Shown here piece after piece: positions 3,736 through 12,422 of a stretch of 34,660 nucleotides of DNA. A program made the position numbers and the translations under genes. The stretch is from an uncultured Ignavibacteriales bacterium (GTDB taxonomy: Bacteria; Bacteroidota; Ignavibacteria; Ignavibacteriales; Melioribacteraceae): NCBI GenBank assembly GCA_947311785.1, contig CAMZLW010000102.1, positions 1 through 34,660 of the forward strand, read 5' to 3'. Position 1 is the stretch's first letter. The number at the start of each line of letters is the position of its first letter. The notes beneath the pieces are model-generated. The model was not told where the DNA came from. It did no database searches and worked only from the letters and a program-made list of their open reading frames with translations.

Positions 3736-4626
3736 ATGCTAAAAAAAATATCTGATTTATATAAAAAAAGTGATGAGCAAAATACAAAACGCCTTGTTTT
3801 AGCTTCTGCGGCAGATGAACATTCATTAGATGCAGTTTTTGCAGCAAAAAATAAAAATATTATTGAGCCGGTTTTAGTTGGAAATAAAGATGTAATTACA
3901 AAAATTTGCAATAAAAAAGGGTATAATTTAAAGGACGTAGAACTTATAGATATTAAAGATAATAATGAAGCTGTAAAAATTAGTGTGCAATTAGTACGAA
4001 ATAAAAAAGCTGATATTATTATGAAAGGGAATGTTCCTACAGCAACACTTTTAAGAGCTGTTTTAAATGAAGAGTATGGTTTAAAATCTGGCAATTTATT
4101 ATCTCATTTTGCTTTGTTTGAACTTAAAAATTATCATAAATTAATTGGCTTAACAGATGTGGCAATGAATATTGCTCCTAATTTAAAAGAAAAAGCAGGA
4201 ATTATTTCAAACTCTGTAAATTACTTAAACAGAATAGGATACACAAAACCAAAAGTTGCTGTAATTGCTGCTGTTGAAGTAGTAAATGAGAAGATGCCCG
4301 CAACAATTGATGCTGCAATACTATCTAAAATGGGAGACAGAAGGCAAATAAAAAACTGTATAATTGATGGCCCTTTGGCTTTTGATAATGCAATAAGCAA
4401 AGGTAGTGCTGAGCATAAAGGTATAGTTTCAGAAGTTGCGGGAGATGCAGATTTATTAATGATGCCCAATATTGAAACAGGAAATGTTTTATACAAATCA
4501 TTTGCATTTACAGGGGCAAAAATTGCAGCGGTTATTTTAGGAGCTACTGCACCTATTGTTTTAACATCACGTTCTGACTCTGAGGAAACAAAACTTAATA
4601 GTATTGTTTTGGCAGCTATTAGTTAA
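3736..4626 (+). CDS. ptb: Phosphate butyryltransferase / phosphate acetyltransferase family protein
   Basis: Members of this family (PTA_PTB) transfer an acyl group between CoA and inorganic phosphate in the cytoplasm. Ptb handles butyryl- and branched-chain acyl-CoAs. The 296-residue length fits Ptb rather than the longer multidomain Pta. Characteristic stretches are ADIIMKGNVPTATLLRAVL (~96-114), a central TDVAMNIAP (~140-148), and the C-terminal AKIAAVILGATAPIVLTSRSD (~260-280). It is followed after 56 bp by a leucine-dehydrogenase-like gene. The same order (ptb then bcd) occurs in the Bacillus branched-chain keto-acid operon, so a role in branched-chain or butyrate metabolism is a reasonable inference. 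No acyl kinase (buk) gene lies next to it here. Exact substrate specificity cannot be read from sequence. Confidence 0.85.
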   Translation: MLKKISDLYKKSDEQNTKRLVLASAADEHSLDAVFAAKNKNIIEPVLVGNKDVITKICNKKGYNLKDVELIDIKDNNEAVKISVQLVRNKKADIIMKGNVPTATLLRAVLNEEYGLKSGNLLSHFALFELKNYHKLIGLTDVAMNIAPNLKEKAGIISNSVNYLNRIGYTKPKVAVIAAVEVVNEKMPATIDAAILSKMGDRRQIKNCIIDGPLAFDNAISKGSAEHKGIVSEVAGDADLLMMPNIETGNVLYKSFAFTGAKIAAVILGATAPIVLTSRSDSEETKLNSIVLAAIS

Positions 4627-4682: not shown

Positions 4683-5747
4683 ATGAGCATATTCGAACAC
4701 ATGAAAAAAAATAAAAGCAGAGAATTGCTTTTTTTAGAAGAAGAAACATTAAACCTAAAAGCAATTATTGCTGTGGATAGTATTATTTTGGGTGCTGCAA
4801 ATGCTTCTGCAAAACTATTTGAGTATAAAAATGAAGATGAAGCTGTTGCTGATGCTTTAGATATTGCCTATTACAATTCGTTAAGAGCAGCTTTGCTTAG
4901 AAGAAGTATGGGGGGAGCAAGTATTGTTCTTTTAGGAAATCCTGACAAAGTAAAAACTGAAATGTATTTTAGAGCTTTAGGTGTTTTTCTTAATCGTTGG
5001 AATGGGAAATTATTTATGTCAATTAGCAAAGGTGTTTCTTATCAGGATTTGAATTATGTTGGTAGAGAATCAAAATATATTCTTGGGTTAGAAGAAAGCC
5101 ATGGAGGATTAGGAAAAATATATGTGAGCAGGGCAAAAGGTCTGATTAAAGGACTTAAAGCTATTGCCAAACATAAACTTAAAACAAGTTCTTTAAAAGG
5201 TTTAAAAATAGTTGTTCAAGGAATTGGGGATTTGGGTTCAGAATTGGTTAAGCAGCTAATTATTGAAGAGGCAGATATAACAATAACAGATAAAGTTTAT
5301 GACAAAATAAAAGTTATTCAAGATAAGGTTGATAATATTAGTATTGAAAAACCAGATAAAATTTATGATGTTGAATGCGACATTTTTTGTTCATGTGCTA
5401 CGGAGAAGTTAATTTCAAGTGAGAATATAAAAAGAATAAAAAGTAAAATTCTTACAGGAGGAACAAATCAAGCGTTAAAAAACCTTAAAGATGTTTCAAT
5501 TTTAAAACAAAATAACGTTCTTTACGTTCCTGGCTATATAATTAACGGAGGAGACATTATTCAAATGAGTAATGAAAAAGAGGGTTATGGTTCTGAAAAA
5601 ATTGAACTTGAACTTAATGATATTTATAGAAATACATTGGACTTAATTATAGAAGCTGAACAAAATGGTATTGTATTATGTGAGCTAGCAACTAAAAAAG
5701 CAGAAGAATATGTTACAAATATTTCTGCAATAAAAATGATTAAATAA
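4683..5747 (+). CDS. Leucine-dehydrogenase-like protein with replaced catalytic residues
   Basis: This 354-residue protein belongs to the Glu/Leu/Phe/Val dehydrogenase family. The ATG at 4683 (MSIFEHM) is preferred over an upstream TTG at 4659 because the N-terminus then aligns without gaps to Bacillus leucine dehydrogenase as I recall it (MELFKYM..). The C-terminal NAD domain is well preserved: GIGDLG Rossmann motif (~180), VTD/ITD acidic strand end, VECDIF, NQALK, YIINGGDII. In the N-terminal catalytic domain the substrate Lys68 aligns with Arg, catalytic Lys80 in GGGK aligns with Ser in GGAS, and Asp115 aligns with Ser. The LGGTRM segment is NASAKL. Normal oxidative deamination is therefore doubtful, yet the reading frame is intact and the fold conserved. 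It could be a pseudoenzyme, an NAD sensor or a changed-specificity enzyme. It probably shares an operon with ptb. Confidence 0.85.
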   Translation: MSIFEHMKKNKSRELLFLEEETLNLKAIIAVDSIILGAANASAKLFEYKNEDEAVADALDIAYYNSLRAALLRRSMGGASIVLLGNPDKVKTEMYFRALGVFLNRWNGKLFMSISKGVSYQDLNYVGRESKYILGLEESHGGLGKIYVSRAKGLIKGLKAIAKHKLKTSSLKGLKIVVQGIGDLGSELVKQLIIEEADITITDKVYDKIKVIQDKVDNISIEKPDKIYDVECDIFCSCATEKLISSENIKRIKSKILTGGTNQALKNLKDVSILKQNNVLYVPGYIINGGDIIQMSNEKEGYGSEKIELELNDIYRNTLDLIIEAEQNGIVLCELATKKAEEYVTNISAIKMIK

Positions 5748-5780: not shown

Positions 5781-7685
5781 GTGAATAATAAATTTATAAA
5801 AATATTTTTAATAACTATTAATTTCCTTATAATTAGCAAGTTATCTTTTGCTCAACATGATGCAGATTCTCTAACTAATATCCTATTAATTTGGAATTTA
5901 GAAGATAACTTTAATAAAAAATATGTTAAACTACTAGATAGTTCTGCTTGTATTTTTCATATTATTAATAAAGAAAATAAAAATAGTATTTTAAATTCTA
6001 ATCTAGGAAATTTAGGCTCTGCAAACATATCAGATATTTTTATAAAGAGAGAAGATAAGTTTAATCAAGATTTTAGCTTTAATTCACCCTATTATCTTTT
6101 TATAAAAGATTCTAAAAGTGCAAATTATTATGATACTAGGCGACCATTTACATCTGCAATGCATTCAACTTCTTTTAAAGTTAATAATATTCAAACATTA
6201 AAATTTACTCATACCCAAAATATTAATCCTAATTTTAATATTGCTGCAGATTTTGATTATACAAGCTCTTTAGGTACTTATATTTCACAAAAAACATCTG
6301 TAAATACTTCAACTATAACTTTAAATTATAAAAAAGAAAAGTATAGTATTTATGCTTCATATATTCGTAATAAAATTGATAACCAAAATAGTGGAGGGTA
6401 TATTGATACAGTTGGTAGTGAAGATGTTTTTAAAGAAGGTTTTATGTCCGAAGCAAAGTTTCTAATAAAAAATCAAGAACTTTCTGTAACACAATTTTAC
6501 AAATTTGGAGACTATAAAAACATTGCATTTAACGATTCTGTAATTAAAGTTTTAGAACCAAAAACAAGCGTTTCTCATAGCATAAGCCTATATAAAAAAT
6601 ATAGAGTTTATAATGATACTGAAGTTCCAGGTAGTAAATTGCCAAATCCAAGTTTTTTTTATCAGGAGGGAAAAACTGCTGATTCTACTTCTGTAATTGG
6701 TATGTCAAATAAATTTAGATATGCTTCTGAAAAAGCTTTTGAAGACAAAAATAAATTTCAATTTTCTGTTATTCTTGAAGCAGATTTAAAGGAGTATTAC
6801 AATTTTAAAGATTATATTATTCTTAAAAATAGTAATACTTTTTTTGAAAATAACATTAGCGGAAATGTAATTACAGATAAGTTCCTAGATATAAAAGCAT
6901 CTTTATTTGCTAAATTTTATTTCTCTGGTTATAGGCAAAATGATTTTAGAACTGAATTAAATTTGCTAAAGAGCATTAATAAAGAGACAAGTCCAATAAA
7001 TTTACATTTTAATACTCAATATTCATATTACAAACCAGATTATTTTACTCAAAATTATTATTCAAATCATTATCAATGGGACAATAAATTTGAAAATTCT
7101 CAAAGATTAAATACTTCTTTAAATATAGATATACCAAAATATGAAATGAATTTTATAATTGCTAGTTCTGCAATTAAGAACCATGTTTTTTATGGCTCAA
7201 TCTCAAAACCAATGCAATACGATTCGATTATTTATGTTTTTACAGCTGGAATAGAAAAGAACTTTAAACTAAATATGTTCTATATTAAAAATAAATTGTA
7301 TTGGCAAAAATCTAATAAAACAAATATAATTTCATTACCAACACTTGCTGCTTACCATTCTACATTTTTAAGAATAGACCTAAAAAGTAAGTCATCATTT
7401 TTCTTAGGATATGAAGTTAATTTTTCTACAGCATACAAGGCTAAGAGTTTTAATTCCTCAATTGGTCAATTTTATCAGGAAAATATAGATGCTCCAACTA
7501 TTGGTAATTACCCTTTTATAGCTTTATTTTTTAATATGAAGATAAAAAAGAATGTTTTATTATCATTAAAATACGAACATATTAATTCTGGATTGATGTA
7601 CGAAAAGTATCCTCTACAAATAAATCATTATCCTGTTTATGGAAGAGTATTTCGTTTTGCAGTTCGTTGGACATTTAAAAATTAA
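5781..7685 (+). CDS. Putative outer-membrane porin (Bacteroidota 'putative porin' type)
   Basis: The 634-residue product starts at a GTG and has a clear signal peptide (ends near KLSFA-Q, ~24). The body is rich in alternating aromatic/polar beta-strands. It has the DTRRPFTSAMH.. region followed by TLKFTHTQNINPNFNI, SLGTYISQKTSVNTS and YSIYASYIRNKIDNQNSGGY, typical of the large Bacteroidota putative porins. The C-terminus ends in an outer-membrane-like strand (FRFAVRWTFKN). It should sit in the outer membrane as a beta-barrel; its substrate is unknown. It begins 33 bp after the dehydrogenase-like gene, so co-transcription is likely. It ends 3 bp from the convergent amylase gene, and no terminator hairpin is visible there. 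There is no ATG near the start that keeps the signal peptide, which supports GTG. Confidence 0.8.
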   Translation: MNNKFIKIFLITINFLIISKLSFAQHDADSLTNILLIWNLEDNFNKKYVKLLDSSACIFHIINKENKNSILNSNLGNLGSANISDIFIKREDKFNQDFSFNSPYYLFIKDSKSANYYDTRRPFTSAMHSTSFKVNNIQTLKFTHTQNINPNFNIAADFDYTSSLGTYISQKTSVNTSTITLNYKKEKYSIYASYIRNKIDNQNSGGYIDTVGSEDVFKEGFMSEAKFLIKNQELSVTQFYKFGDYKNIAFNDSVIKVLEPKTSVSHSISLYKKYRVYNDTEVPGSKLPNPSFFYQEGKTADSTSVIGMSNKFRYASEKAFEDKNKFQFSVILEADLKEYYNFKDYIILKNSNTFFENNISGNVITDKFLDIKASLFAKFYFSGYRQNDFRTELNLLKSINKETSPINLHFNTQYSYYKPDYFTQNYYSNHYQWDNKFENSQRLNTSLNIDIPKYEMNFIIASSAIKNHVFYGSISKPMQYDSIIYVFTAGIEKNFKLNMFYIKNKLYWQKSNKTNIISLPTLAAYHSTFLRIDLKSKSSFFLGYEVNFSTAYKAKSFNSSIGQFYQENIDAPTIGNYPFIALFFNMKIKKNVLLSLKYEHINSGLMYEKYPLQINHYPVYGRVFRFAVRWTFKN

Positions 7686-10810: not shown

Positions 10811-11611
10811 TTAAGGTTGTTGACTGCGAATAACCAAATATACAGCATTAATATCAACAAAATCTCCTGAATTTTGCGAAAATGCGTTCAAATGAATTTC
10901 AAAAGGTATTGTTCCTGCATTCCAATTTTTCCAAGGACTGGTAACAGTATGTCCTCCTCCTGTCCAAGCCCATGTCCAAGTATCAGTATTTACAATTGGA
11001 AATGTTTCTGTTGTTCCATTATGAGCTCTTAATTGCAAATGATTAGTTCCCAATTTGTTGGTGGCTCTAATAATCATTTTAACTTGTAAATTTCCATTTT
11101 TTTCAAAAACAGTAGGATTAATTACAGTTTCACAATTAGGAACATCAACAGAAGGTGCATTATTATTAACGGTAAATCCAGTTCCTTTATACAAAGGAAT
11201 AATTGTAAAAAAATTACTTGCTCCAATATATCCTCTCACATCTAATTCTGTTATAGGATTTGAAGTTCCTAAACCAATATTATCTCCTGTAAAAGAGGTA
11301 GTTGTGTTTTCATTTACAGCGTCTCTTCTCCAAGGGTTATTTTCCTGATTTCCAATATATTGCCATAAATTACCATCGTAATAATAAATACCTAAAATAT
11401 TATTTGTTTGAAAAACAGTTAAGCCCTCAGCAGGACTATTGATATTTAGTCTTTCGTTTTCAAGCATTCTCGGAATAATTAATCCTTTTGCAGAAGATTT
11501 AATATCTAAAATACTTGAATTATTGGGTGTAGAGTTTCCTATTCCCACATTTTGAGAAAATCCTGTTACAATTGAAAAAGAAAATAGGAATAATATAATT
11601 TTTGCTTTCAT
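10811..11611 (-). CDS. Secreted VGIG-repeat protein 2, unknown function
   Basis: A 266-residue exported protein with a signal peptide (MKAKIILFLFSFSIVTGFSQ). The N-terminal part has the NVGIGNSTPNNSSILDIKS..KGLIIPRM pattern seen in many Bacteroidota surface or tail-fibre-like proteins, then a YYYDGNLWQYIG motif. A second copy of the pattern (NIGLGTSNPITELDVRG) is at ~112-130. A distinct C-terminal domain (~155-266) rich in Trp and Thr (DTWTWAWTGGG, WKNWNAGT) ends in LVIRSQQP. It is a tandem paralogue of the next gene upstream (11616-12422), with conserved cysteine (NCE) and Trp positions. No T9SS sorting domain is present. It lies in the amylase cluster, 4 bp after its paralogue. A glucan-binding or enzyme-scaffold role is possible but unproven. 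Confidence 0.75.
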   Translation of the reverse strand: MKAKIILFLFSFSIVTGFSQNVGIGNSTPNNSSILDIKSSAKGLIIPRMLENERLNINSPAEGLTVFQTNNILGIYYYDGNLWQYIGNQENNPWRRDAVNENTTTSFTGDNIGLGTSNPITELDVRGYIGASNFFTIIPLYKGTGFTVNNNAPSVDVPNCETVINPTVFEKNGNLQVKMIIRATNKLGTNHLQLRAHNGTTETFPIVNTDTWTWAWTGGGHTVTSPWKNWNAGTIPFEIHLNAFSQNSGDFVDINAVYLVIRSQQP

Positions 11612-11615
11612 AAAT

Positions 11616-12422
11616 TTAAGGTTGCTGTGGTTTAACTAATAAATATGCACTGTTAAAATTTGCATTAGCATCAGTCCATCCATAAAGATGAACTTCCCAA
11701 GCATTTGTTCCGGCATTCCAATTTTTCCATTCACTTTCTACTATCCATCCGGTTTGTGTTGATGTCCAAGTCCATGTGTCGGCACTTGCGATGGGATATA
11801 CTTGTGTACTATTATCATGTGCTCTTAATTGAAAATTATTATTTCCGTTTGCAGAAGTAACTCTAATAACTAACTTTACTTGTACATTTCCACTTGCTTC
11901 ATAAATTGATGGTTCAAAACCAGACTCGCAATTAGTTAAATCCTGTCCGCTTGTGTTTGTCATATTATAAATACTTCCGGCTTGCCATAAAGGAATTACT
12001 GAAATCATATTTGTTGCAGAAGCAAAGCCCCTTACATCAAGTTTCATTGCTGGAGTTGAAGTTCCTATTCCAACATTATCAGTTGAATTTGCAAGAATTG
12101 TGTATGAATTGGCAGCATCTCTTGACCAATAATCATTTCCTTCATTTCCTATATACAACCAAGTTGTTCCATTGTAATAATAAAATCCTTCCAAATTATT
12201 TGTTTGATATACCATTAAACCTTGTGCGGGAGAACCAATTCCGGTTCTTTCAGTTTCAAGCATTCTAGGAATTAACATACCTTTTGAATTTGATGAAACA
12301 TCAAGCATTGCAGAATTATCAGGCTGATTTCCTGATGTGTTAATTGCTACTTGCGAATAACTTTCATTAAAAAAAGTAACAAAAAATAAAAGAGACAGTA
12401 TTAATATTAATCGATTTTTCAT
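11616..12422 (-). CDS. Secreted VGIG-repeat protein 1, unknown function
   Basis: A 268-residue exported protein, paralogous along its whole length to the gene at 10811-11611. It has a signal peptide ending near ESYSQ. Two VAINTSGNQPDNSAMLDVSS / NVGIGTSTPAMKLDVRG patterns flank a GFYYYNGTTWLYIG motif. The C-terminal Trp-rich domain (DTWTWTSTQTG, WKNWNAGTNAWEVHLYGW) ends in LLVKPQQP. It begins 8 bp after amylase A ends and ends 4 bp before its paralogue begins, so it is almost certainly translated from the amylase A transcript. Its function is not recognised. The context suggests a periplasmic or surface partner in alpha-glucan use. The absence of a T9SS domain means it may be handled differently from the amylases. 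Confidence 0.75.
   Translation of the reverse strand: MKNRLILILSLLFFVTFFNESYSQVAINTSGNQPDNSAMLDVSSNSKGMLIPRMLETERTGIGSPAQGLMVYQTNNLEGFYYYNGTTWLYIGNEGNDYWSRDAANSYTILANSTDNVGIGTSTPAMKLDVRGFASATNMISVIPLWQAGSIYNMTNTSGQDLTNCESGFEPSIYEASGNVQVKLVIRVTSANGNNNFQLRAHDNSTQVYPIASADTWTWTSTQTGWIVESEWKNWNAGTNAWEVHLYGWTDANANFNSAYLLVKPQQP

Follow-up and report, generated by a model that had tools for sequence, protein, structure and literature searches.

What can a leucine dehydrogenase (LeuDH) homologue contribute to a cell once its catalytic residues have been replaced, and what does it do beside a phosphate butyryltransferase gene (ptb)? We examined one such gene in a window of 34,660 nucleotides, the whole stretch of DNA analyzed here (contig C102 of assembly G000). 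The frame begins with ATG and continues for 354 codons without an internal stop, in agreement with the intact gene described in the original prediction. The protein, which we call pseudo-LeuDH, and its surroundings comprise the following features:

3736 to 4626, + strand: ptb, the phosphate butyryltransferase gene immediately upstream, probably on the same transcript (PTA_PTB, 9e-50)
4683 to 5747, + strand: pseudo-LeuDH, a catalytically degenerate LeuDH homologue of 354 aa (profile, structure and alignment evidence)
4800 to 4820, + strand: codons 40–46, NASAKLF in place of the LGGARMW substrate loop (alignment)
4875 to 4922, + strand: codons 65–80, NSLRAALLRRSMGGAS, with M65 to N, K68 to R, G73L74 to RR and the catalytic K80 to S (alignment)
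5025 to 5027, + strand: codon 115, catalytic Asp to Ser (alignment)
5220 to 5237, + strand: codons 180–185, the retained dinucleotide glycine loop GIGDLG (conservation across the clade)
5289 to 5324, + strand: codons 203–214, DKVYDKIKVIQD, Asp203 and a family-specific motif (clade alignment)
5781 to 7685, + strand: Porin_10 outer-membrane protein, in the place that the butyrate kinase gene (buk) occupies in outer branches

Fold and active site of pseudo-LeuDH

Pseudo-LeuDH matches LeuDHs of the PDB over its whole length in phmmer searches (8hpe, 196.8 bits, 4e-57; 6acf, 188 bits; 1leh, 186 bits) and scores 48.4 bits against PF00208 (cut-off 23.4). Its identity to the Bacillus/Geobacillus enzymes (bcd; 1LEH, 6ACF, 8HPE) is 28–30%, and it resembles them in length, fold, glycine loop, Asp203, N261 and a gapless N-terminal domain. 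The best NCBIfam model is tryptophan dehydrogenase ScyB (NF035922; PDB 5B37), which covers the full length at 213 bits; unlike ScyB, pseudo-LeuDH falls far under the 600-bit cut-off and does not retain the active-site residues. An AlphaFold2 model built from 16 sequences (mean pLDDT 73) compares with known structures (VIA) at Z scores of 30–32 for LeuDH and 35 for phenylalanine dehydrogenase (PheDH). By the PF00208 and PDB matches and these Z scores, the protein belongs in fold and ancestry to the leucine dehydrogenase/ELFV dehydrogenase superfamily. The predicted model confirms that the LeuDH fold is retained; it is poor in the catalytic domain (pLDDT <50 at residues 100–143) and gives nothing reliable on active-site geometry.

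The alignment bears out the announced replacements, namely K68 to R, K80 to S (GGGK to GGAS), D115 to S and LGGARM to NASAKL, and adds M65 to N, T134 to L, T150 to R and N262 to Q; glutamate dehydrogenases in the same alignment retain the standard residues at the compared sites. The first indel relative to 1LEH lies near residue 217 and the N-terminal part is gapless, as the original prediction had claimed, which rules out a register shift providing Lys80 or Asp115 from neighboring positions. Both residues are absent from all 34 members of the clade described below, where position 80 is Ser (27), Gly (4) or Ala (3) and position 115 is Ser (26), Gly (6), Asn (1) or Glu (1). Since the residues at 80 and 115 differ among members, these changes look like losses and not like an exchange for a new catalytic residue; the same variability rules out a nucleophilic role newly taken on by Ser80 or Ser115. 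Nor do the 34 sequences contain a conserved, new acid/base residue at the catalytic positions.

Unlike the Bacillus/Geobacillus enzymes, the clade has K80, D115, K68 (by Arg), Gly41-Gly42, M65, T134 and N262 replaced. The carboxylate-binding combination of Lys68 with a Gly41-Gly42 loop is not found in it: position 68 is Arg in 30 members and Lys in 4, position 41 is Ala in 32/34, and position 42 is Ser, Thr, Val or Ala. Positions 80, 113–116, 147, 150, 262 and 294 are variable across the clade. In the window's own clade 147 and 150 are altered (Y and R), two positions that lie on the nicotinamide side in LeuDH structures.

Conservation was quantified over 19 pocket positions, mostly those in PMC8766677 and PMC6033044, plus position 80. 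In canonical LeuDHs their mean entropy is 0.40 versus 0.92 for random positions (P = 0.0008); in the pseudo-LeuDH clade it is 1.18 versus 1.22 (P = 0.42). The substrate pocket in this clade is conserved no more than background. Lys80 mutants of LeuDH keep ~1.5% of deamination activity and are rescued by ammonia in part only, with K80R almost unaffected by rescue (PMC12018205), and amine dehydrogenases engineered from LeuDH still keep K80 as essential (PMC6033044). The loss of LeuDH chemistry in pseudo-LeuDH is thus well supported by the alignments and very likely.

Distribution, selection and source of the contig

A scan of the collection found 15 relatives at 45–89% identity, and whole-genome searches gave further ones. 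The 34 distinct relatives (pairwise identity at least 36%, median 51%) are 25–39% identical to canonical LeuDHs and group together in a single clade (support 100/100), whose stem is long at 1.36. Orthologues with the same losses, which the original prediction had proposed to look for, therefore exist in number, and the residues that take over vary. Selection on them is purifying and shows no sign of the relaxation that had been considered: dN/dS is 0.03–0.18 in the seven closest pairs, with a median of 0.15 over 198 pairs with dS <2. Catalytic residues lost in orthologues that remain under purifying selection mark this protein as a probable pseudoenzyme.

Pseudo-LeuDH, a protein of Bacteroidales-type bacteria, is present in all 21 genomes searched in the family of genome G172. 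No second, active LeuDH was found in these 21 genomes, only glutamate dehydrogenases; their other PF00208 proteins are of glutamate dehydrogenase size, save a few cut frames. In a wider sample of the order, 15 of 393 genomes carry the gene, and one more order-wide match, L165, has both K80 and D115 and is a canonical LeuDH. The plasmid collection holds only matches below 60% identity.

The gene is missing from the other searched genomes of the genus (4), family (78) and order (163) of G000, the window's own assembly. The window contig has a tetranucleotide distance of 0.094 to G165 versus 0.177 to its own assembly, and nearly all other sampled contigs >10 kb lie at 0.085–0.134. Given the absence from relatives of G000, the retention in 21/21 genomes of another family and the composition, the window contig (1–34,660) is probably misbinned. 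Absences in G000 are therefore not usable, and that of buk was set aside. Contig C13 of G000 (L113) looks similar to the window contig in this respect. Elsewhere in the window, positions 10811–12422 hold two adjacent, related genes for secreted proteins of 266 and 268 aa, an apparent tandem duplication.

The putative nucleotide site and the acyl-phosphate genes

GIGDLG, ITD and VECDIF are all present in the window protein, so the NAD domain is preserved as the original prediction had it, with both the NAD-binding glycine loop and the acidic residue after β2. Across the clade G180 and D203 are invariant (34/34) and G182 is kept in 30/34; the mean entropy at 180/182/185/203 is 0.13. N261, which contacts NADH in LeuDH (PMC6033044), is retained in 33 of the 34 members. 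Unlike the Bacillus/Geobacillus enzymes, the clade also carries a new motif after Asp203 (D203..YDxIKxxQD), in which Y206, D207, I209, K210, Q213 and D214 are invariant (34/34). The mean entropy of positions 202–214 is 0.51 in the clade versus 1.67 in canonical LeuDHs, a comparison whose P value is optimistic since the motif was chosen after inspection of the data. Constraint thus appears to have left the substrate pocket for a motif next to the nucleotide site, and it is reasonable to infer from the retained site that pseudo-LeuDH binds a nucleotide. This shift offers a starting point for finding out what dead dehydrogenases sense.

The ptb product scores 360–381 bits with phosphate butyryltransferase models, slightly below their cut-offs. 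Its suggested link with pseudo-LeuDH holds up, the adjacency being real and conserved: ptb lies directly upstream in 20 of the 28 loci with room to tell and is not adjacent in the other 8. Butyrate kinase is encoded directly downstream in 14 of 34 loci, and ptb and/or buk adjoin the gene in 30/34. Neither is adjacent in L172 and L174; in L172 a class I aminotransferase-like gene, read from its translation, replaces ptb directly upstream (L172:2045-3247, G185).

The gene order of the Bacillus bkd operon is ptb-bcd-buk. Four pseudo-LeuDH loci (L016, L170, L173 and L180) have the same three genes adjacent on one strand, which makes ptb-(dead bcd)-buk the likely ancestral order. The window locus itself is ptb-bcd only. 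The lack of buk that had drawn attention to it is correct at this site and does not extend beyond it: relatives carry buk directly downstream, and curated models identify a butyrate kinase above cut-off in 14 of 15 related genomes; in the window's clade the gene lies elsewhere in the genome. The Porin_10 gene that follows pseudo-LeuDH is conserved in the window's own clade; that it is part of the ptb/pseudo-LeuDH module is doubtful.

The butyrate kinases score 477–508 bits (cut-off 289) and are not degenerate by model score. Of the 14 encoded directly downstream, 13 carry a fused ABC_sub_bind/TrpX-like domain at the C terminus, which may sense amino acids in the cytosol; the fused proteins have ~650 aa (L016:5632-7587, L013:1079-3211, L170, L173, L175–L180, L184 and L185). 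The best ~150 butyrate kinases of an order-wide search are all ≤476 aa, so the TrpX-like fusion is not their usual form there. A literature search that covered few subscription journals found no paper that describes either a LeuDH turned pseudoenzyme or a system of ptb, buk and LeuDH in Bacteroidetes.

Candidate functions

The best explanation, to which we give a probability of about 0.45, is a pseudoenzyme that binds a nucleotide and serves the Ptb/Buk step as a regulator or scaffold. LeuDH (bcd) in an ancestral ptb-bcd-buk operon would have lost its amino-acid dehydrogenase chemistry while its product kept the LeuDH fold and a dinucleotide site (NAD or ADP-type) and gained the conserved motif right after Asp203. 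As predicted from sequence, pseudo-LeuDH would most likely act as a sensor for NAD(H) or for an adenine nucleotide and would regulate or scaffold the conversion of (branched-chain) acyl-CoA to acyl phosphate and on to ATP and acid. The putative role at this step is suggested by gene order, by the sensor domain fused to the relatives' kinases and by a precedent, the catalytically inactive, leucine-sensing GdhA subunit of the hetero-hexameric glutamate dehydrogenase of Thermus thermophilus (3AOE; PMC9570180). Both belong to amino-acid dehydrogenase families, GdhA as a catalytically inactive regulator and pseudo-LeuDH putatively so. Unlike GdhA, which is paired with the active paralogue GdhB, pseudo-LeuDH has no active LeuDH paralogue in the searched genomes, and its linked genes are ptb and buk. 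A more elaborate, rather speculative picture is an acyl-phosphate module of three parts that is specific to these Bacteroidales. Beside Ptb it would comprise a dead LeuDH that reads the NAD(H)/adenylate state and a butyrate kinase whose fused TrpX-like domain senses amino acids in the cytosol, and together the three might gate ATP formation from amino-acid fermentation by two allosteric inputs.

The original prediction had left the choice between a pseudoenzyme or regulator and an enzyme with new chemistry. Fixed losses, purifying selection and the retained dinucleotide loop and Asp203 favor the pseudoenzyme. In an enzyme with new chemistry, a remodeled pocket (N65, R/K68, K/R44 and R/K74) would bind an anionic ligand, for example an acyl phosphate, a CoA ester or a hydroxy acid, and catalyze a reaction that is either NAD-linked or non-redox. 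Some of the pocket is indeed constrained, with N65 and L71 invariant (34/34) and basic residues at 44 (34/34), 68 (34/34) and 74 (33/34); the NADH-contacting N261 is kept, and an enzyme sharing an operon with Ptb would fit. We nonetheless consider new chemistry unlikely, as conservation over the whole pocket does not exceed background, positions 80, 113–116, 147, 150, 262 and 294 vary, and the catalytic sites offer no acid/base residue that is both new and conserved. About equally unlikely is a structural subunit whose oligomer organizes Ptb and Buk and whose nucleotide site merely stabilizes the fold. Operon linkage, a fold kept without its catalytic residues and the octameric assembly proposed for LeuDH (PMC6033044) are consistent with such a subunit, but a purely structural role leaves six invariant residues beside Asp203 unexplained.

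A weak LeuDH in which R74, K114 or K116 replaces Lys80 is less probable still. Position 74 is basic nearly throughout, and K/R at 114 and K at 116 each occur in 19/34; K114 and K116 nevertheless lack conservation, Arg substitutes poorly for Lys80, as the K80R mutant illustrates, and D115, the Gly41-Gly42 loop and N262 are gone as well. Decay or an assembly or sequencing artefact, which the apparent misbinning might have suggested, is refuted by a frame that stays open at each of 34 independent loci, by dN/dS ratios well under 1 and by 21/21 retention in one family, and the earlier judgment that this is not random decay stands.

For the preferred reading of a nucleotide-binding pseudoenzyme, the candidate partners Ptb and Buk and a natural outgroup series make the case testable. 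It would be a clean, conserved example of an amino-acid dehydrogenase turned pseudoenzyme within a catabolic operon. General family models would label the protein a Glu/Leu/Phe/Val dehydrogenase and so credit the host bacteria with branched-chain amino acid dehydrogenation, which is most likely beyond pseudo-LeuDH.

A separate Bacteroidota LeuDH clade has only Lys80 replaced (by N, Q, T or S) and keeps K68, D115 and the glycine loop (L018, L019, L020, L022, L027, L034, L037, L038, L057, L063, L067, L068 and L071). Its members are mostly found at a DUF218-LeuDH-NusB locus, and the replacements at Lys80 amount to about four changes on the tree.
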